From a virus: a stretch of 24,906 nt of DNA. The stretch lies in IMG/VR virus record IMGVR_UViG_3300023116_000328, positions 1 to 24,906 of that record; one strand, 5' to 3'. The position numbers and the translations under genes are program-made. The notes beneath the pieces were generated by a model. That model had not been told where the DNA came from. It did no database searches and saw only the letters and a list, made by a program, of their open reading frames with translations. Of the stretch, positions 12,745-22,983 are shown piece after piece (position 1 is the stretch's first letter; every line of letters begins with the position of its first letter).

Positions 12745-12931
12745 TTCTTACGATCTCTCTAAGAAGTAGTTTGATTTCAGATAGTTCTTCCTTCAAAGTA
12801 TTTATGTCATGAAGAGCATTGGTCATTGTATGAGAAAGGTTGTTACGAGAAGGTTTATCTGTATTGATAATAGCTCCCGTATCAAGGTCACGAACCAAGT
12901 TATCGTGACCTTCTACTTTTAAGTATTTCAT
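12731..12931 (-). CDS. 66-aa coiled-coil protein, conserved small cyanophage-type protein
   Basis: The ATG shares its A with the TAA stop of the 2690-aa gene (TAATG), a typical stop-restart coupling, and no strong ribosome site is seen. The 3' end overlaps the 1409-aa start by 14 nt. The N-terminal half reads MKYLKVEGHDNLVRDLDTGA, a pattern I recall in small proteins of T4-like cyanophages. The C-terminal half (about 38-62) has leucine/isoleucine heptads (INTLKEELSEIKLLLREIV) predicting a coiled coil. Both overlaps suggest it is made in proportion to its large neighbours. It could be a small virion component or an assembly chaperone; function is unknown. Confidence 0.85.
   Translation of the reverse strand: MKYLKVEGHDNLVRDLDTGAIINTDKPSRNNLSHTMTNALHDINTLKEELSEIKLLLREIVRNASN
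12799..12806 (-). promoter_or_regulatory. CATAAATA late-promoter-like motif inside the 66-aa gene
   Basis: CATAAATA (NATAAATA type) lies on the coding strand 54 nt before the ATG of the 1409-aa gene. It is within coding sequence (codons for H-D-I-N-T), so chance occurrence in AT-rich DNA cannot be excluded. Confidence 0.35.
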
Positions 12932-15900
12932 TAGTATGAAGCAACTGCTCGTAGGTCTTGTACTTTAGGAACATATGCTGGGTTTTCAGATTTCATAATA
13001 ATCTTGACAGCAAATGAACTGAAATCTGGAAGATCTGAAGCACTATATGTTAGTTCTTGATAATCTTCTTGTTTTTCAAATTGACCAGAGATTGAATTTG
13101 CTGGAGTAGCAATAACATCAAAATCTGGATTGCCATCTTTATTGAAAGGAATCCAATTAGTATCTTCAAAATTGATAGAACTCGAAGCTTCTTTAATTTT
13201 GTAATATACTTTGACATTCTCAATATCAGGAAGGTTAACTGTAGTTTTAACCGTAATAGAACTGCCAGGATTGTTAATAGAAACTTCCTTAGTAACGTAT
13301 TTGGCAATAGCAGAACTATTAGAAGAATCTGTTTCTGGTACATAATCAATACCAGTATCAAATGTCATTGTAGCAATCTCTAGGAATGATTCTGTTCCAG
13401 CAGTTGTCTTGATAACATCACCTTTTCTAAAGATATCTGCCTGCTGACTAGTTGAAGAAGCTAACCTTACATAAGCAGTATCTTCTGTGTTGCTGGCAGT
13501 GTAGTTGTTATTAATGGGAGCAAAAGCATTCTCAACCACAAGAATATTTTCTTCTGGATCCCACAGAACAATTTTGCCATTGATCTTGTTGTTGTAATCC
13601 GTATCAGTATCAAAAGGATAATAAGCAATTAAGTTAGATCCAACACTAAAGTTAAATGTAATTCTAGAAATGTTTCCAACTTGTAAACTGACATCACCAA
13701 CAGTCTCACCTGAGGTGTTGATCAACGTTAATGACTCACTTGCCTGGAATTCTGTTTGTGTTCTCAATCTTATACGAGCAGTTCCATTTTCGTATGATAC
13801 GACATATCCTTCTGCTTTAGAATTTTGTCCAACAATAACAGTTCCTGCTACAAATTGATCGGAGTTGTCACCAGAAACAGCTACAGTGATATCAAACAGT
13901 GGTAAGAAAGTTAGAATTTGATTTCTCTTACCATAACGATTCTCATAACCAGTGGCATTTTCTACACGGTTTGATGCTGTCTTGACAGAAGCAGTTCTAA
14001 GATCGACGATTGGGGAAACAGCAGAGTTTGTTGACTTAAGTCTCAACTTATACTTAAGACTGTCTTTAATGCCATTGGTAATAGAGTTAATGTCCGAAGC
14101 AACAATCTTCTGATTAATAAAGAAATGCTCTTCATTTAAGAAAGTTTGTTCATAGTCGGTTATAGAATAAGAATCGTAATTTGTTACACTGGCATCCGTT
14201 GGAATAACGTTAGTTGTTGAAACAAATGTATCAATCTTAGTTCCCTCTAGTTCTAAGTGAGGAATCTGAGCATAAAGTCTTTCATACTTTCTGTTGAAAG
14301 AAGCAATAACCTTATCTCCGCCACCAAGTACGCTAGAACCAGCTGGGTTTGGAGAAACAATGTTATAGAAATCTAAACCAGAGTTAGAAACTTTAAACAA
14401 TCTTCCATTCAGAGTAGCACTTGAGATACCACCAACGTCTTGTGTATTAGCAAAGAACACATACGAATTGCCACTATCTTCAAATCCATTGTTTCTATGA
14501 TTTACTTTAATAATAGAATTATTATTTTTGAAGAGTGGTGATGTGGCATTAGATGGAGATCTAACACTGGTTTCGAAAGGAGAAATGTCTAGCAATTCAT
14601 AACCTAAAGAATCATTAGTAAGTTCTAGATTTCCTTCAGTAGCAATATCAAAATTAGCACGATATAGAACAAACTTCAAATCTTCGAACAAGTCTTCTGT
14701 CCAGTTATCTGTATTTTGTGACTTATAAACAGAACCAAGTAAAGGTTGTGTAGTAACTACATTGCTGGTAGCAATTTCAATTTCTCCCAACTTAGATGCC
14801 CAGAGAGCATAATCCAAAGAATCAGTCTCTACTACTAAAGCATATTCGGTATTGTTCTGTAGATAAACTGGGTGCTTAAACTTGAAGTTGGTTGGTGTAG
14901 TTGATTCAATATCACCTTCGAAGTCTGTAGCAATACCCATGCTAACAGCAGGTGTATCAATTTCAATGAATGATTGAATGATAGCACCAGCAGCACCAGT
15001 TCCTACACCTTTGATAACAACTGATGGAGCTTCAGTATAACCACGACCAGATAGAGAAATTTCAGCATTGTAAACCTTGCCATCAGAAACACCAACGCTG
15101 GCAGTAGCAGAAGAACCACCTGGAAGTTGTGGACTTTCAATTGTTAACGAAGCGGTTTCGTAATTGTCGCCAGTGTCGAGAACTTTTAATCTCGTAACCT
15201 TACCAGAATCTTTAGCAATAAAAATTCCTAAAGTGGTATTATTCTTAGCATTGTAACTAACAATAGAAGGAATTGATAGTGATTCGTTTGGAACAAATGC
15301 TGTTCCATTATGATTGCTTAGAACCAAAGTGTAAACTTGTTCTTTGTTTAACTCAAATGTAGTGCTTGACTCATCACCAACCTCTACGTTATTAGCGTCC
15401 AGTACCTTCAAAATAGGTCCAGAAGCGTTAGAACTAGTTCCAGATACATATTCACCCTTACCAATAGTTACCGTCTCTTTCTCGCCCGTTACATACACTT
15501 TTAAATATGTTTCTGGATTAAGAGACACTTGTGTGCCAGGGATAATATTCTTTCCTGGTTTACCAGAAACGACATCGGTCAAATATGCTCTTAAAGGAAC
15601 GGAAGAACTCTTTTTCTGGAAGAAGAGATCTACACCAGTTGTCATCATACCAAGTGGGAAATTCTCAACCTTGAATGTTTGAGCAAGAGGATTTGGTTTG
15701 ATTGGGTTGTCGGTATTGCTATCAACTAATTGTACACCCTCATTTGATTTGAAGAATGCTGCTTGTGTAGATGTAATACTTGGAGGATTGTTTGGAAGAG
15801 CTCCAGTAGCATAGAACTGAACTTCGGCATATGTATCAGCAGATGCTTTATCTTGATTTTGATCACTTGATGTAAATCTGATGGTCTTAACGCCAGTTGT

Positions 15901-18900
15901 AAATCTAACCTCTTCAGAACCTTCACTGTATGAAACTGTATCAACGTTACCAGTCCATCTGGTATTTGGAGTTGGTTTTAGACCTGCTGGAACTATAATG
16001 ATACCACTGAGATTACCATTAGAATCTGTTACAAGTTCAGATCCAAATGAAGTTAAAGAGTTTCCAGCAATACCAGTAAATCTCGTATCAGGAACTACCC
16101 ATCCATTAATATCACGACCTTCCATGAAGACGTATACTCTGGTATTAGGCTTCAGACGATTGACAACAAACTTAATTGGAATTGATCTAGCAAAGAACGT
16201 TACAGAACTAGCAATTTTCTTATTACCAACCTGCCTTGAAGATTGTCCCTTTCCAAGTTCATTATTCTGTGGACTGGTGTTAGAAGAACTAGCAACACTG
16301 GCAGTTTGTACTGAAGATTCTAAATCTTCACTGTTGACATTTGCTAGAGATTCAATTGGCAAGAATGCCTGATCAGTACCACACCAGTTTACAATGAATG
16401 AATTGTAAATACTAGAATAAGCATCAGCAAGATATTCTTCTTTTGCTAAGTAAATAGAATTTAGTTTAGTATTAGAATCAGAAACAAGAGGAGCGACGGA
16501 TTGATCATACCAAGAATCTTGTTGTGGAGTAATCACTGACTCGCCAACATATTGAATGACAACAAATGGATTTGGATTAATAGTTTTAGTAGCATTTTTG
16601 TTGCCCAAAACTTCTACTTCAGTGTATGGCAGAGAAACAACTCCATTCTTAATTGTGTAACCAGCAACTTGTCTTTGGTCATCTCTTGTGTTGATTTCTC
16701 TAAGACTTAAGCTATCTTCCTTAGATTGTGGTCTAAGAACAGATTGCTGAGTGTCAATAGCACACTTGTAATCAACTGATTTAAGATTTCCAACTCTATG
16801 TGCTTCGAAGTTATCTACAAGGAATCCACTCTTAAATCTTTCTAGACCAAGATCATCCTTGATTTGCATGTTCTGTGTTTGCTGCTCTAGAATGCTTAGA
16901 GTAGTGTAGTATTCAAGACGTTCGATACGTTTCTCTAACTTACCAATGTCCTTCATAGTATAACGCTTGTTATCGACAGGGATAACTCTTACATCTTTGC
17001 TGCTGTTAGTATAAGCAGGGATATGTAGATAGCAAAGAGAAATAGCATCATCAATTGGTTCTGGTTTGGATGGGTTGAGAGAAGAGTTGCCTTTCTTGAC
17101 AACAAAATCTCCTTGCTTGGTAAGGAACAATCCATCAATACGATCAAGATACTGCTTCTCACTAAATGACATAGTAAAGATTAGATTTGTATCTGGAGCA
17201 GGAGTAGCAGAAGGAATGCCGCCATTACCAGTAAAGCTAATATAGTCGGTAGAATCGAATAGAGAAACAATTGAGTTATCTTGGAAACCAGTAATTGTAG
17301 TGTTATTGTCTACCTTTGGTCTAAAGTCAATACAATCTCTAAGTGCTACTAAACCATTTGCTTCTGAGTTAAACAAAGGAATTTCTTCCGCTGTAACACC
17401 AGCTTCGTGTACATAAGAATCAACGGTAGAGAAATCTCCAGCAGAATGGTTGAAGTAATCAAAAGCAATAATTAACTGACCTGTAGGAGCATCAAATCCA
17501 GGTTTTAGAATAATTCTAGAAACATCATAATAAGTGTCACGCTGACCATTGTCAAAACTAAACTTGTATGTAACGTCTGTTCCACTAATCAAATTACCAG
17601 ATCTATCTACTGATGGTGGATTAGTTACCGTTCCTTCGTAAATATACTTTAATTTAAATACATCAGAATATGAGAACGTTTCAATAATATCAGAATCATA
17701 ATCTTGACCTCTAATAGGAATTACACGGTCACCACTTGAAACGACAACAACTCTCTTATTTCTGACTACAGTTTTTAATCTAGGACGTGCTTTGTCGATC
17801 TCTACCGTAGCGGTTAATTTGAGAGTTGGATAGTTGCCATCAAGGATGGTTCCAAAGTAATTCTGTGGTAGTCCTTCAATTGCCAAAGCGCCAGCTGTAA
17901 CTGTGCTAGCAGTAACTTGAGAATCTGTAATAGTGACGTATCTTGGATCAATATAAACAATATCACCATTTTCTACAACTGTAGAAGATCCTTTATCTAG
18001 TACAGTAATGATAAAGTTTTGTTCAGTAAATCCAACAAACTTTTGTGTACCAACTGGCAATTGAGCGGTGAAAGTTAGTAATCCACCAGCAGCAGAAAGT
18101 TCAGTTACAAAATCTTTTCTGATGTAATACTTGAACTTAGTATCGCTGGTATCACTAACTAAAGAAGCGACTTGCTTACTTCCTGTTGGGAACACCAATG
18201 AAGATGAAGAGTTAGCAATTCTTGGACGTAATTTAATAATAGTAGCATTTACAACATCTGCTGGTAGAGAATAATCGAGATAAATTCTTGATTTATCAAT
18301 ACCAGAAGGTTCGGTAACATATTGTACAACTGTTCTGATTACGTTGTTATCAGCATCGGTAAACTGAATAATGTCTCCCTGAATTAATCCAGTTAAGTTA
18401 GCACCAAATCCATTACACTCAAGATATTTTCCTCCCTCAGATCCAAAGAAACTAAAGTCACTAATTTGAGTGTATGTAGCATAAGATGAAGATGATACAT
18501 CAATATCTGCTGTAAAAGTATAGTTATTGTATACCGAAGCAAATGACTTCACATTTTGAGGCGTGTAAGTCAGAACAGTATCTCTAAACAATACAGGAAC
18601 AATAATAGCAGGGGTAGCATTATCATCATCTCCAGTTAATGTAACTACAGGTGGTGAAAAATACTCAATATTACGAACTTTTTGATCTAAAATTACAGCA
18701 GATACAATTGCTGTTCCACTGGAGTTGTAAGACAAGTCGATCTTAGATTGATCATACTCAGCACCATTAATGAACATGTTCTCAGAACCATCATAATTAG
18801 CACCTCGTTTGGTAACAACAAAGTGTGACAGAGTGTTGTTCTTAGCAATTTTAATAGTATTGTTTGCTTCATCAATAATGGTTTCGCCAGAAATAAACTG

Positions 18901-21003
18901 TCCAAACAGAGTAGTTACAAACAGTGTGTTATTTCCAGAGAAATTTTCTGTAGTATCATTCTCAATAACAGCATACGCTTTACTTTCTTTTCCATAAATG
19001 TACTTACCTTTTGTAAAGGTGCCGTCTGCTATACTTCTATCTAAAGTTAGTTTTGTAAAGAATGTTGGATTGAAATAACTAAATCCAAATGTAGCCTCAT
19101 AAGGAGTTTGTGTTCCAGATCTACCTCTAGATAGAACAATATCAGTATCTGGATTAAATCCTAATGCTCTATTGATAAGTCTAAAGTTTTTTGGTTTTGC
19201 CAAACCAATTACTGGAGTAATACTAGCATTGTAGTCTCTAATTGTACCCCATTCTCCCGTCTCGGAGAGCATAGCAGCTTCGGTTTGATATAGGTATTTC
19301 TCAAAAACATTTGGGAATCCAGTATCATACTCAAGCAAGAACTCATCTAGAATTGCCTTATCGCCAATAACAGTAAGTTCAGCAAATGTCGTTGCTGCTG
19401 CAATATCTTCTCTGGTTACTAATGATTTAGCAATCACCTCAACAGATTTGCCAAGAACACTTCCAGTTCCTCTTGTAGTGACAAACCATAAAGTGTTGGG
19501 AATAGCATCAGTGTTAGATGGAACTGTCCCAGAAAGTTGAACCCAAATAGTTTTAATACCAGTATTAATACCAAGTTGTTTTGATCTTCTATTAACAGTT
19601 CTCTTGTAATATGAAGATGCTTCTAGACCAGAGAACCCAATTGTGCCATCAGTAAATGTTGAATTTAAAGTTACAGTTGGATATCCTGTAATTGTATCGC
19701 CAACGTTGTTCAAAGGAACAGAACCATATACGTTGGTAATATTAAACTCTGGAAGTCCACGACTCTTTAGAGTAACGTTGTCTCTAGAAAGAGTATCTCT
19801 TCCTTTTTCTACTTCTAGTGGTTTCGACTCTTTATTAACAATTTCATAACCCTTGACATATGCCTTACCAGAACTTACGGTAAGAACCATTCTATCAGCA
19901 GCATCTACTTCACTATATCCATTAACTAGACCAGTTTCTTCACTGAGAGCATACACACCATTGTTAAATCCTTTCTGGTAGTATTCTCTAATAGAGTAAT
20001 CAAAATCATCTACAACATAGTCTCCAGATTCGTCATAGGTTCTTCTTGCTAAGGTTTCTTCTAGTAGAGAATAATCTGCTGCTTTTACTTGTTTCTCTAC
20101 AGATCCTTCTTTAATTTGAAGAAGTTGAATAAAGTTCTTATCTGTGTTTGCTCCATAATCAAACTTAGTTAAGGTTAGATCGATACTAAGTCTGTGAGCA
20201 CCAGGAGCAGAAGCGTTAGAGAAACCTCTAGCGTTATCATATAAAGAACCATCTTGTTCTGGAGTTACAATATCTTCGTTGATTGTAAATCCAACTTTAG
20301 CGGAAGCTTTGTCATAATACTTATTAATAATCAGGAGTTGTTTCTGATTCTTGACAAAGAAACCATTTACAAAGTAAATACCTTCCTGAACTTCAACTGC
20401 AGTAGCAAATCCCATCGCTGGACTGCTAAACGAGTTAACATTTCCAGAGACAGGATCGGTTACGTTAATACTAGTTGGTAGAACACTACCATCAGTACCA
20501 ACTACAAGTAGAGGAGTGTTGATGCCGTCAATAACTTCGAGTGTTTCGCCTTGTCTAAAAGTAGATTCATTATTAGCGTCACCACTAGTTGTATACTTGA
20601 CAAACAATGTATCAGCTTCTATGTCAGACCCATATTCTGCTGATACGACCTTACCGACAACCCCCGAATTGATTCCCCTAAGGTCAGTATTAACTAGTTT
20701 TTTAATGTCATATTTTTTGTAGACAATTTGTCCACCTTCATTGACAGCAACCTCAGACACAGAAGACAATTTAACGAAGTCAAGTTTGGTATTTAAACCA
20801 ACTTCACCAGGAATTACTTGCTGTCCTTGTTTAAACAAGAACTTACCATAACTCTCAATTTGATTCTGGAGGATCGATTGTAGAGATGTTAATTCCCTAG
20901 TCTGGATCGAGTATCCAGGTCTGAACAGAACTTTGTAAAAGTTCTTGTCAGCATCAAAATCATCATAATATGGTGCTACATTAAGATTAGTCTTCTGTGG
21001 CAT
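12931..21003 (-). CDS. DUF4815-type giant baseplate/tail structural protein, 2690 aa
   Basis: The N-terminus (YYDDFDADKNFYKVLFRPGY, then RELTSLQSILQNQIESYGKF) matches the recalled signature of DUF4815 phage structural proteins. Around residues 1349-1383 is KDIGKLEKRIERLEYYTTLS, a coiled-coil segment also conserved in that family. At about 1765-1790 is NPLAQTFKVENFPLG with DLFFQKK, and at about 2033-2075 is HPVYLQNNTEYALV with LLGSVYKSQNTDNWT, blocks I recall as close together in relatives. The C-terminus (VKVYYKIKEA... FAVKIIMKSENPAYVPKVQD) is also family-like. The protein is beta-rich with no signal peptide or membrane helix. It follows gp8 and probably builds a large external baseplate or fibre-attachment structure. 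Start choice is supported by GGAG 4 nt upstream of the ATG, although this site is held inside a hairpin. The length appears greater than usual because of internal modules. Confidence 0.92.
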   Translation of the reverse strand: MPQKTNLNVAPYYDDFDADKNFYKVLFRPGYSIQTRELTSLQSILQNQIESYGKFLFKQGQQVIPGEVGLNTKLDFVKLSSVSEVAVNEGGQIVYKKYDIKKLVNTDLRGINSGVVGKVVSAEYGSDIEADTLFVKYTTSGDANNESTFRQGETLEVIDGINTPLLVVGTDGSVLPTSINVTDPVSGNVNSFSSPAMGFATAVEVQEGIYFVNGFFVKNQKQLLIINKYYDKASAKVGFTINEDIVTPEQDGSLYDNARGFSNASAPGAHRLSIDLTLTKFDYGANTDKNFIQLLQIKEGSVEKQVKAADYSLLEETLARRTYDESGDYVVDDFDYSIREYYQKGFNNGVYALSEETGLVNGYSEVDAADRMVLTVSSGKAYVKGYEIVNKESKPLEVEKGRDTLSRDNVTLKSRGLPEFNITNVYGSVPLNNVGDTITGYPTVTLNSTFTDGTIGFSGLEASSYYKRTVNRRSKQLGINTGIKTIWVQLSGTVPSNTDAIPNTLWFVTTRGTGSVLGKSVEVIAKSLVTREDIAAATTFAELTVIGDKAILDEFLLEYDTGFPNVFEKYLYQTEAAMLSETGEWGTIRDYNASITPVIGLAKPKNFRLINRALGFNPDTDIVLSRGRSGTQTPYEATFGFSYFNPTFFTKLTLDRSIADGTFTKGKYIYGKESKAYAVIENDTTENFSGNNTLFVTTLFGQFISGETIIDEANNTIKIAKNNTLSHFVVTKRGANYDGSENMFINGAEYDQSKIDLSYNSSGTAIVSAVILDQKVRNIEYFSPPVVTLTGDDDNATPAIIVPVLFRDTVLTYTPQNVKSFASVYNNYTFTADIDVSSSSYATYTQISDFSFFGSEGGKYLECNGFGANLTGLIQGDIIQFTDADNNVIRTVVQYVTEPSGIDKSRIYLDYSLPADVVNATIIKLRPRIANSSSSLVFPTGSKQVASLVSDTSDTKFKYYIRKDFVTELSAAGGLLTFTAQLPVGTQKFVGFTEQNFIITVLDKGSSTVVENGDIVYIDPRYVTITDSQVTASTVTAGALAIEGLPQNYFGTILDGNYPTLKLTATVEIDKARPRLKTVVRNKRVVVVSSGDRVIPIRGQDYDSDIIETFSYSDVFKLKYIYEGTVTNPPSVDRSGNLISGTDVTYKFSFDNGQRDTYYDVSRIILKPGFDAPTGQLIIAFDYFNHSAGDFSTVDSYVHEAGVTAEEIPLFNSEANGLVALRDCIDFRPKVDNNTTITGFQDNSIVSLFDSTDYISFTGNGGIPSATPAPDTNLIFTMSFSEKQYLDRIDGLFLTKQGDFVVKKGNSSLNPSKPEPIDDAISLCYLHIPAYTNSSKDVRVIPVDNKRYTMKDIGKLEKRIERLEYYTTLSILEQQTQNMQIKDDLGLERFKSGFLVDNFEAHRVGNLKSVDYKCAIDTQQSVLRPQSKEDSLSLREINTRDDQRQVAGYTIKNGVVSLPYTEVEVLGNKNATKTINPNPFVVIQYVGESVITPQQDSWYDQSVAPLVSDSNTKLNSIYLAKEEYLADAYSSIYNSFIVNWCGTDQAFLPIESLANVNSEDLESSVQTASVASSSNTSPQNNELGKGQSSRQVGNKKIASSVTFFARSIPIKFVVNRLKPNTRVYVFMEGRDINGWVVPDTRFTGIAGNSLTSFGSELVTDSNGNLSGIIIVPAGLKPTPNTRWTGNVDTVSYSEGSEEVRFTTGVKTIRFTSSDQNQDKASADTYAEVQFYATGALPNNPPSITSTQAAFFKSNEGVQLVDSNTDNPIKPNPLAQTFKVENFPLGMMTTGVDLFFQKKSSSVPLRAYLTDVVSGKPGKNIIPGTQVSLNPETYLKVYVTGEKETVTIGKGEYVSGTSSNASGPILKVLDANNVEVGDESSTTFELNKEQVYTLVLSNHNGTAFVPNESLSIPSIVSYNAKNNTTLGIFIAKDSGKVTRLKVLDTGDNYETASLTIESPQLPGGSSATASVGVSDGKVYNAEISLSGRGYTEAPSVVIKGVGTGAAGAIIQSFIEIDTPAVSMGIATDFEGDIESTTPTNFKFKHPVYLQNNTEYALVVETDSLDYALWASKLGEIEIATSNVVTTQPLLGSVYKSQNTDNWTEDLFEDLKFVLYRANFDIATEGNLELTNDSLGYELLDISPFETSVRSPSNATSPLFKNNNSIIKVNHRNNGFEDSGNSYVFFANTQDVGGISSATLNGRLFKVSNSGLDFYNIVSPNPAGSSVLGGGDKVIASFNRKYERLYAQIPHLELEGTKIDTFVSTTNVIPTDASVTNYDSYSITDYEQTFLNEEHFFINQKIVASDINSITNGIKDSLKYKLRLKSTNSAVSPIVDLRTASVKTASNRVENATGYENRYGKRNQILTFLPLFDITVAVSGDNSDQFVAGTVIVGQNSKAEGYVVSYENGTARIRLRTQTEFQASESLTLINTSGETVGDVSLQVGNISRITFNFSVGSNLIAYYPFDTDTDYNNKINGKIVLWDPEENILVVENAFAPINNNYTASNTEDTAYVRLASSTSQQADIFRKGDVIKTTAGTESFLEIATMTFDTGIDYVPETDSSNSSAIAKYVTKEVSINNPGSSITVKTTVNLPDIENVKVYYKIKEASSSINFEDTNWIPFNKDGNPDFDVIATPANSISGQFEKQEDYQELTYSASDLPDFSSFAVKIIMKSENPAYVPKVQDLRAVASY

Positions 21004-21004
21004 G

Positions 21005-21053
21005 TTACTCCGCCAAATACTCTACATTATCGTTGAAGTATTTAGCGGAGTAA
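21005..21053 (-). promoter_or_regulatory. 17-bp hairpin enclosing the ribosome-binding site of the DUF4815 gene
   Basis: In the mRNA sense the 5' arm TTACTCCGCTAAATACT (21053-21037) pairs with the 3' arm AGTATTTGGCGGAGTAA (21021-21005). All 17 positions pair, one as G-U, around a 15-nt loop. The Shine-Dalgarno GGAG lies in the 3' arm, and the arm ends one nucleotide before the ATG. The 5' arm contains CTAAATA, a late-promoter-like motif. No U-run follows, so it is not a typical terminator. Confidence 0.8.
21039..21045 (-). promoter_or_regulatory. CTAAATA late-promoter-like motif before the DUF4815 gene
   Basis: CTAAATA lies in the 58-nt gap after gp8, ending 35 nt before the ATG, and sits within the 5' arm of the hairpin. 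Transcription from such a motif normally starts about 10-13 nt downstream, which would leave the 5' arm out of the mRNA. Confidence 0.55.
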
Positions 21054-21061
21054 AAAGTAAA

Positions 21062-22930
21062 TCAGAACTCAATAACGAGTTTGATATCTTCGATCTGGTC
21101 GGCAGCACGTGTGATGAGACGACGGTTCTCAACATAGATGATCTCGCCAGAGTTATTTTCGATCTCTGGGTTAGCAAGACCATTCGAGAATGTAACTCCA
21201 CCGAGAGTCACGTTTGCTTCTACAGCATCATCAGCAGTGGTGATAACATCACCAGCAGCAAGTGAAGAAAGACCTTCAATGTTATTAGCTGATGCTTCGA
21301 AAGCTCTTACAACACCAGCATCGGTGTGAAGTGAAGGTGACTGAATCCACTTGAGAACACCAGTTCCACCAGGACCAGCATTACCAGCATCTAGTTCCCA
21401 AGAAACTACGGTGCCGTAAGCAAAACCACCAGCAGCAACAGTTTGACGGATTGTTTCATCAACCTGATAGTCAGCAGTAGCGTTCTCAATTCTGGCAGCA
21501 TATACACCATTTAGGGTGCTGGTAGAAGCGACGGTTGTAGTACCGAAAGCATATGGATCCTTGATAATACCGATACGACGGAAGTCGTTATCAACAGGGA
21601 AGTCGCCAGATCCTTCAGCATAAGTTAGACGGATGTTCGTCATAACACGCTTGGCATTGAGCTCTTCTTCAAAGTTCGAACCGTGACCACCTTGAGGAGG
21701 TAGAATGACTTCAAGAGCACCAGTTGCTGTATTACCTACAGTAACAGCAGCACTGAAAGCGGTTGAAGTGTATAGACCATAAGCAGAACCAGTCCAACCT
21801 GGATCGCCATTTAGAAGACCAGTTTCTAAAGCAATAGAAGCATAAGTGTAACCAGAACCAGGAGTTACAACAGTTACTTCACTGATACTACCACCAACAA
21901 CTACAACTTCAACGGCACCACCAGTGCCATCTCCAAGAATAGGAGCATAGTGAGTACCATTAGGTAGAGCAGTTCCAGCGTCTTCAACTAGAACAACATC
22001 GATGGCATTAGGAGCAGCTGTAGCGATTGCTTCGGTATCGATACGTGACTGGTTCGTTGGAAGAACAATTGGCATGAAGTCCGTAGACAGGAAGCGTAGT
22101 ACGTCATCAGTTGGGATGGTGTACATATACTTCCAAATATATCCACCAGGAGCAGAAGCATCCTCGGTAAATTTGCCAGTAACAGCATCATAAGAACCTT
22201 GACCAGCAGAAGGTGTGGTCTTGGGTTCGTTAGTGGCAGTTTGACCGCTTGTGTTAGCAGGATTCTGACCATTGTAGAGGCACTTAAATACCTCGTACTG
22301 TGAGTTAATTAGATAGTACTTAGCGTCAGCAATGTTGGTAGCACCAGTAGCAGCTGCCTTACCAATCTGACCACCAGAACCAGGAGTTGTGGAGTAATCA
22401 GGCTTCCACATGTCGAATACTGGGTTAGCAGAGATGTCCCAGTTGAAACGACGGATTACGCTACGGGCGAAATCGGTGGTAATACGCTTAGCAGCAATGA
22501 TATCATCATAGATATCATACTTTTCTGCTTGGTTGTCGAGAGGTACAGGGGGAACATCCTCTGTAGCGTAACGATAAACACCAGTCAATGCTTGAGCGCC
22601 AGTATCAGCAGTTCCATTCCACGCTTTGAGTTGTGAACCTACTGCAGGAGTAGCATTTGTGGTTGGACCAATTTGGAATAGAAGAAGTGAGTTTTCGTAT
22701 ACTTCTCTAATTTCTGCTTTAAAGGTAGCAGTGCCATAAGTAGCACCAACATATACTTCGTTGCCAACAACGAATGCTGTGTTATTAGCACTGAAGATTT
22801 CTAGGTAGGCATCCCAACGTTGAGGACGACCTACGAAGAAATACATCTTCGTGTCTTCTGCTTCACTCAGTGATTCTAGAAACTGGGAAGCATTAAAAAT
22901 TCTAAACTTATCTGAGATGATAGCAGCCAT
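21062..22930 (-). CDS. 8: Baseplate wedge protein gp8 (T4-like)
   Basis: This is the clearest homology in the window. Residues 1-40 (SDKFRIFNASQFLESL... MYFFVGRPQRWD) correspond to the T4 gp8 start (TSKFR... ITFGRSEPW). The middle contains YEVFKCLYNG and APGGYIWKYMYTIPTDDVLRF, matching VYRCL and GDGYVWEYLFEIPPDVSINR of T4. The C-terminus RRIGIIKDP, then SGEIIYVENRRLITRAADQI, matches RQISIITNP and SGEMIYMENRPPIIMAMDQT. In T4, gp8 dimers form part of the baseplate wedge with gp7, gp10, gp6, gp53 and gp25. At 622 aa it is nearly twice the 334-aa T4 protein. Much of the excess lies between the DVLRF and RRIGIIK blocks and includes a GSGYT beta module. It is preceded by two overlapping TATAAATA motifs and a GAGAGAG ribosome site. 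Confidence 0.95.
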   Translation of the reverse strand: MAAIISDKFRIFNASQFLESLSEAEDTKMYFFVGRPQRWDAYLEIFSANNTAFVVGNEVYVGATYGTATFKAEIREVYENSLLLFQIGPTTNATPAVGSQLKAWNGTADTGAQALTGVYRYATEDVPPVPLDNQAEKYDIYDDIIAAKRITTDFARSVIRRFNWDISANPVFDMWKPDYSTTPGSGGQIGKAAATGATNIADAKYYLINSQYEVFKCLYNGQNPANTSGQTATNEPKTTPSAGQGSYDAVTGKFTEDASAPGGYIWKYMYTIPTDDVLRFLSTDFMPIVLPTNQSRIDTEAIATAAPNAIDVVLVEDAGTALPNGTHYAPILGDGTGGAVEVVVVGGSISEVTVVTPGSGYTYASIALETGLLNGDPGWTGSAYGLYTSTAFSAAVTVGNTATGALEVILPPQGGHGSNFEEELNAKRVMTNIRLTYAEGSGDFPVDNDFRRIGIIKDPYAFGTTTVASTSTLNGVYAARIENATADYQVDETIRQTVAAGGFAYGTVVSWELDAGNAGPGGTGVLKWIQSPSLHTDAGVVRAFEASANNIEGLSSLAAGDVITTADDAVEANVTLGGVTFSNGLANPEIENNSGEIIYVENRRLITRAADQIEDIKLVIEF

Positions 22931-22969: not shown

Positions 22970-22983
22970 TATTTATATTTATA
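22970..22983 (-). promoter_or_regulatory. Two overlapping TATAAATA late promoters before gp8
   Basis: Perfect copies of the T4 late-promoter consensus TATAAATA lie at 22983-22976 and 22977-22970, overlapping by two bases. They sit at the stop codon of the upstream gene, 39 nt before the gp8 ATG. The rest of the 48-nt gap is AT-rich, then C-rich before the GAGAGAG ribosome site. Confidence 0.75.

Follow-up and report, generated by a model that had tools for sequence, protein, structure and literature searches.

Results

The gp8-DUF4815 junction

The window, by which we mean the whole stretch of 24,906 bases that was analyzed, is a fragment of a T4-like cyanomyovirus, and the named phages closest to it are Synechococcus phages, including Sf-FR1 and S-WAM2. 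On its minus strand, the upstream cistron (21062..22930) encodes the baseplate wedge protein gp8 (PF09215, Phage-Gp8, E = 1.3e-10; relatives carry the annotation "baseplate wedge"), and the presumed regulated gene (12931..21003) encodes a giant structural protein of 2,690 amino acids with a DUF4815 domain (PF16075, E = 8.5e-52). A gap of 58 nt separates the gp8 stop codon (21062-21064) from the DUF4815 ATG (21001-21003). The nearest promoter motif upstream of this gap is of the late type and lies before gp8, where two late-promoter motifs (TATAAATATAAATA; 22970..22982, minus strand) are the likely origin of RNA that reads through into the gap.

Analysis of the gap revealed an inverted repeat of two 17-nt arms (21005-21021 and 21037-21053) that are 94% complementary, with one G-U pair as the sole exception, and are separated by a 15-nt spacer. 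Read on the minus strand, the 5′ arm (TTACTCCGC TAAATACT; 21037..21053), defined by the repeat and by the predicted fold, contains a sequence match to the late-promoter-type motif CTAAATA (21039..21045); the loop (21022..21036) differs among relatives; and the 3′ arm (AGTATTTGGCGGAGTAA; 21005..21021), which is kept in motif-bearing relatives, contains the GGAG ribosome-binding site (21008..21011), 4 nt 5′ of the ATG. The sequence confirms the first-pass annotation of this DNA, which had described a 17-bp stem with one G-U pair and a 15-nt loop, hiding GGAG and carrying CTAAATA in its 5′ arm.

The late motif of Aeromonas phage Aeh1 is CTAAATA, starting at −12 (PMC1524935), and that of S-PM2 is NATAAATA (PMC2984593). 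Setting the C of the window motif at −12 by the Aeh1 rule predicts a transcription start at 21033 (minus strand), inside the hairpin loop and downstream of the 5′ arm. CTAAATA-type motifs showed no enrichment across the window (2 found versus 5.7 expected), so the significance of this motif rests on its position and conservation.

The gap contains no U-tract and no terminator-like site, and the 3′ arm is followed directly by C-ATG. An intrinsic (Rho-independent) terminator was rejected for the window hairpin, which lacks the combination of a GC-rich stem and a U-tract. A known Rfam RNA was likewise rejected, since no family in the window exceeded its gathering score and the one match near the hairpin (E 0.55) was at chance level.

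Predicted folding in the window and at other late motifs

The window read-through RNA has a predicted folding energy of −30.8 kcal/mol (z −5.7), which none of 200 shuffled sequences equaled, whereas RNA starting at 21033, that is, 12 nt after the motif start (C = −12), is only as stable as its shuffles (z −0.3). The predicted cost of opening GGAG is 14.0 kcal/mol in the read-through RNA and 2.0 kcal/mol in the promoter-started RNA, in agreement with the earlier proposal that read-through mRNA would fold and block translation while mRNA lacking the 5′ arm would be freely translated. Comparison with 480 gene starts, taken from the window, seven contigs or genomes related to it and a portion of Sf-FR1, placed the window DUF4815 start highest (14.3 kcal/mol versus a median of 1.7 and a 99th percentile of 13.0), tied with the DUF4815 start of a near-identical contig; the DUF4815 starts of two further contigs also ranked near the top.

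When 93 late-promoter-like motifs from intergenic sites in related contigs were compared, the window's motif lay in the most stable of the hairpins spanning them. Unusually stable hairpins were found at 15 of the 93 motifs, compared with 6 expected, and most of the others were of a different design. An initial scan of whole genomes for strong ungapped hairpins around late motifs found them almost exclusively at this junction, with one other in contig G003. Because such hairpins are essentially confined to the gp8-DUF4815 gap, we rejected the possibility that they are a general feature of late promoters.

Several late motifs elsewhere were combined with terminators. Directly 5′ of the gene for gp13, the head-tail adaptor, an intrinsic terminator carries the late motif in its loop, giving a combined terminator and late promoter, in S-CAM4 (NC_031900, ~105,935-105,985; L498), S-PM2 (NC_006820, ~66,785-66,833; L500) and contig G007 (near 935, minus strand; gp13 assigned by homologous position); the terminator stems differ between phages (GATCCCTTCTTCCTAAATAGGTAAGAAGGGATTTTT and AAATCCCTATCTGATAAATACAGGTAGGGATTTTT). 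A second S-CAM4 site (NC_031900, ~145,635-145,675; L499) has ACCTCCCCTCTAAATAGTTAGACGGGAGGTTTTTTTATG as a terminator stem with the late motif in its loop, and the GGAGGT of its 3′ arm could double as the ribosome site of the adjoining hypothetical gene. A further S-PM2 site (NC_006820, ~115,170-115,200; L501) has ATAAATA followed by CCTCCATATGGAGGTTTTTT directly 5′ of a gene for a RusA-like resolvase, placing a late motif, a terminator and a possible ribosome site within 30 nt.

Four types of gap among relatives

Related loci were gathered from IMG/VR and from GenBank phages using gp8 relatives, two hairpin DNA patterns, an exact 14-mer, the DUF4815 N-terminus and named phages, yielding 167 distinct gp8-DUF4815 gaps. 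gp8 precedes the DUF4815 gene at 354 of the 355 starts considered to have enough upstream sequence; at the remaining start the element is present and the upstream sequence is too short. All 350 matches to the hairpin patterns in the fetched loci lie before a DUF4815 start (348 assigned automatically, the other two also beginning MPQK), and a mobile or repeated element was therefore rejected. The exact 14-mer CTCCGCTAAATACT gave at least 120 matches; 12 among the matches listed had the complementary arm, and the 14-mer alone was rejected as an uninformative marker since that arm is rare among them.

The gaps fell into four types, whose counts are not frequencies in nature because searches that began from the hairpin favor types A and B. 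Type A gaps (65 of 167) have the promoter motif and no terminator. Type B gaps (67 of 167) have the same promoter and ribosome site and, in addition, an intrinsic terminator (e.g. CCCCCGAGAGATCGGGGGATTTTTTTT) that ends a few bases 5′ of the motif; the isolates S-WAM2 and S-CAM4 have gaps of this terminator type. Type C gaps (30 of 167) lack the motif and are 23-47 nt long. In the five type D gaps (L053, L063, L243, L036 and L045), of the S-PM2/Syn1 type, CCTAAATA lies within a small hairpin (e.g. CCTAACCTCCTAAATAAGGTTAGG) that includes the promoter motif and ends without reaching a ribosome site.

The motif and the ATG are 40-48 nt apart (sd 1.0-1.5) in gaps of differing length. The predicted leader measures 28-36 nt in 132 distinct relatives despite gap lengths of 49-214 nt. 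Both hairpin arms are kept among relatives, and the flanking spacer and the loop are free to vary. Type B relatives such as L071 and L044 also retain an inner palindrome (AAATACTA/TAGTATTT) though their ribosome site is not hidden, and some of the palindrome may therefore have another role.

Predicted occlusion of the ribosome site is associated with the absence of a terminator

With the transcription start set in each relative by the Aeh1 rule, under which CTAAATA begins at −12 (PMC1524935), the predicted opening cost in type A gaps (n=65) had a median of 9.57 kcal/mol for read-through RNA and 1.94 kcal/mol for promoter-started RNA. Shuffling the type A sequence upstream of the start lowered the read-through value to 3.09 kcal/mol (median z 5.2), and 46 of the 65 gaps exceeded every one of 30 shuffles. 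Type B gaps (n=67) were at the level of their shuffles, with a median of 2.07 kcal/mol (3.21 in a longer RNA) and a median z of 0.2. The type C median was 2.13 kcal/mol, and all 30 gaps were at or below 4.14 kcal/mol; the lack of strong occlusion where there is no internal promoter matches what a model of bypass from such a promoter requires.

Exchanging flanks located the difference between types A and B. Type A flanks joined to type B 3′ halves gave 9.6 kcal/mol, close to the 9.7 obtained with own flanks, whereas type B flanks on type A 3′ halves gave 3.9 and other control flanks 2.3 kcal/mol, the controls being rough in that several of the twelve were nearby phage sequence rather than exact 16-nt flanks of late motifs. 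The 3′ halves of the two types are thus equivalent, and the difference is carried by the 16 nt 5′ of the motif.

A tree built from the first 600 nt of DUF4815 coding DNA, which excludes the gap, indicated that terminator presence has changed at least 17 times among types A and B. Costs of at least 5 kcal/mol were found in 53 of the 63 type A rows on the tree and in 9 of the 65 type B rows; pairing is weak in the other 10 terminator-free relatives. Across 13 supported independent pairs, terminator and occlusion differed in opposite directions in about 9.6 and in the same direction in 0 (median p 0.002), a test that, like the arm-swap test below, is subject to effects of relatedness and to which mechanical overwriting of the arm by a terminator cassette inserted beside the motif could contribute part of the anticorrelation. 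Loss of the terminator stem with the type B flank left behind would, however, give a predicted cost of about 4-5 kcal/mol, compared with about 9.7 in type A rows, suggesting that the arm is actively maintained or restored.

The first-pass annotation had pointed to relatives in which pairing is lost while promoter and ribosome site are kept as evidence against a switch. Such relatives do exist, accounting for 56 of the 65 terminator-type rows on the tree, but they have an intrinsic terminator there instead; since the terminator replaces the hairpin, this exception supports the idea that read-through expression is blocked.

Evidence for co-adaptation of the hairpin arms

Compensatory changes in the arms, also suggested at the outset, were found by one approach and not by another. 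Column-wise covariation was not significant in a MAFFT alignment of 35 terminator-free sequences, in which 83.8% of the cells were paired compared with 83.0% after column shuffling and 28-55% when the arms were slid; one row of this alignment (L343) has six added A at its 5′ end, which touch only the outermost columns. The weakness of this signal reflects nearly invariant arms, the ribosome site constraining one and the promoter half of the other. RNAalifold gave no consensus on the same alignment, probably because variation in inner-stem length misaligns the rows.

We also used an alignment-free arm swap, in which every 5′ part was joined to every 3′ part. Own pairs gave 16.1 kcal/mol compared with 14.95 ± 0.26 for permuted pairs, a value reached in 0 of 5000 permutations, which relatedness may inflate; after collapsing to 49 arm classes, it was reached in 1 of 5000. 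Individual relatives illustrate both outcomes: in L378 the stem is lengthened by CGTAC/GTACG, and L065 has a cost of 15.1 kcal/mol with its own arm and 8.4 with that of the window, whereas L012, L070 and L446 are predicted to be occluded more strongly by the arm of the window than by their own. The arm-swap test supports co-adaptation of the arms.

A late promoter motif upstream of gp8

A late motif, mostly in tandem (TATAAATATAAATAA), was present a few tens of bases 5′ of the gp8 ATG in 65 of 65 distinct relatives (rows L059 and L072 were left out of this check), suggesting that the read-through RNA is itself probably late and upholding the earlier placement of the hairpin inside a late structural operon. 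The 5′ arm of most relatives with strong pairing starts about 8-12 nt past the gp8 stop codon, a distance at which, given the size of the ribosome footprint, a terminating gp8 ribosome would just clear the arm. In nine weaker relatives the stem starts 1-2 nt past the stop, so gp8 translation could open the hairpin there.

Discussion

We propose that the junction probably holds a promoter-in-hairpin translational insulator between gp8 and DUF4815, which relatives exchange for a terminator. Late RNA polymerase starting from the gp8 late promoter would cross the gap, where there is no terminator, and the resulting read-through RNA would form the 17-bp hairpin, burying GGAG and leaving DUF4815 poorly translated. 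The putative CTAAATA promoter in the 5′ arm would initiate RNA within the loop, at about 21033, and this RNA, lacking the 5′ arm, would expose GGAG and allow translation of DUF4815. DUF4815 output would therefore be governed by its own promoter, independently of read-through from gp8. In related phages, an intrinsic terminator directly 5′ of the same promoter would provide the insulation, and the occluding arm has degenerated. Our literature search found no transcription-start map for any DUF4815-bearing cyanophage.

The same physical mechanism could instead form a timing switch of the T4 type, in which early or middle RNA is silenced by the hairpin and the late promoter releases DUF4815, imposing a delay rather than setting dosage, and the known T4-type cases are indeed late genes on transcripts that also bear early or middle genes (PMC2988022). 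We consider a timing switch unlikely here, given that gp8 is a structural gene preceded by a late motif of its own in the relatives that were checked, so that read-through RNA should be largely late, and that the terminator found at the same place in relatives acts at all times. Overall, the late-in-late setting favors insulation of dosage over timing, though some early read-through may occur.

Two other explanations take the hiding of GGAG to be incidental or without function. The palindrome might be a DNA operator adjacent to the late promoter or a site where RNase III/E splits the gp8/DUF4815 RNA; a processing site could take the form of such a ~17-bp stem, and the inner palindrome persists in terminator-type relatives whose GGAG is no longer strongly paired. 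An operator or processing site seems quite improbable, however, in that strong pairing of GGAG tracks the absence of the terminator, promoter-less gaps are never strongly paired, and changes in arm sequence appear co-adapted. That the promoter and the ribosome site are complementary by chance and co-inherited, as a functionless by-product of shared descent, would fit with all carriers belonging to one phage lineage and with arms too conserved for column-wise covariation, but is very improbable: the arms are kept while spacer and loop vary freely, the tree shows several shifts of occlusion together with the terminator, and control flanks yield no occlusion.

Beyond the window, the evidence leaves evenly balanced the broader proposal that marine T4-like cyanophages insulate the operon junction between baseplate and giant structural genes with two interchangeable devices around one late promoter, a terminator or a hairpin, that have been switched repeatedly, and that the T4 promoter-in-hairpin acts as an operon insulator in general as well as a timing switch. 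In the T4 cases described, the device silences late genes early in infection; here, in ocean viruses of an abundant group, a late gene lies on either side of it. Relatives with the same promoter and ribosome site, in which a terminator substitutes for the occluding arm, supply a natural control. The resulting claim, testable in isolates, is that the dosage of a giant virion protein in cyanophages is shielded from its upstream neighbor by either transcriptional or translational means.

Comparison with known systems

In T4, the genes e, soc, 49 and I-TevI each have a late promoter within a hairpin that hides the ribosome site, and e is repressed about 100-fold (PMC3014915, PMC2988022). The analogy with T4 drawn by the first-pass annotation holds at the level of sequence, at which the features of the gene e and I-TevI device are found here: a ribosome site hidden in the long RNA, a late motif in the 5′ arm and a predicted short RNA without that arm. 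In contrast to the T4 cases, in which early or middle promoters give rise to the long RNAs (PMC2988022), the upstream cistron here is a late structural gene, the regulated gene encodes a giant structural protein, and relatives exchange the hairpin for a terminator.

A hairpin with a late promoter has also been described in a review for mobE of Aeromonas phage Aeh1 and for T4 segB (PMC2988022). The arrangement is the same, and Aeh1 late promoters also have CTAAATA (PMC1524935), but mobE and segB are homing endonuclease genes inserted in early or middle operons.

The promoter early stem-loops (PeSLs) of T4-like phages, as described in the work cited in PMC4503421, consist of an early promoter and a terminator stem-loop shuffled between sites, and on that description they resemble the window element as compact intergenic elements joining a promoter and a stem-loop. 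The window element differs from PeSLs so described in having a late motif and no U-tract and in being found only before DUF4815, and a PeSL cassette was rejected on the basis of the late motif, the absence of a terminator and the single junction at which the 350 pattern matches occur. By sequence, the element is a probable variant of the T4-type device that lies between two late genes and that relatives swap for a terminator.
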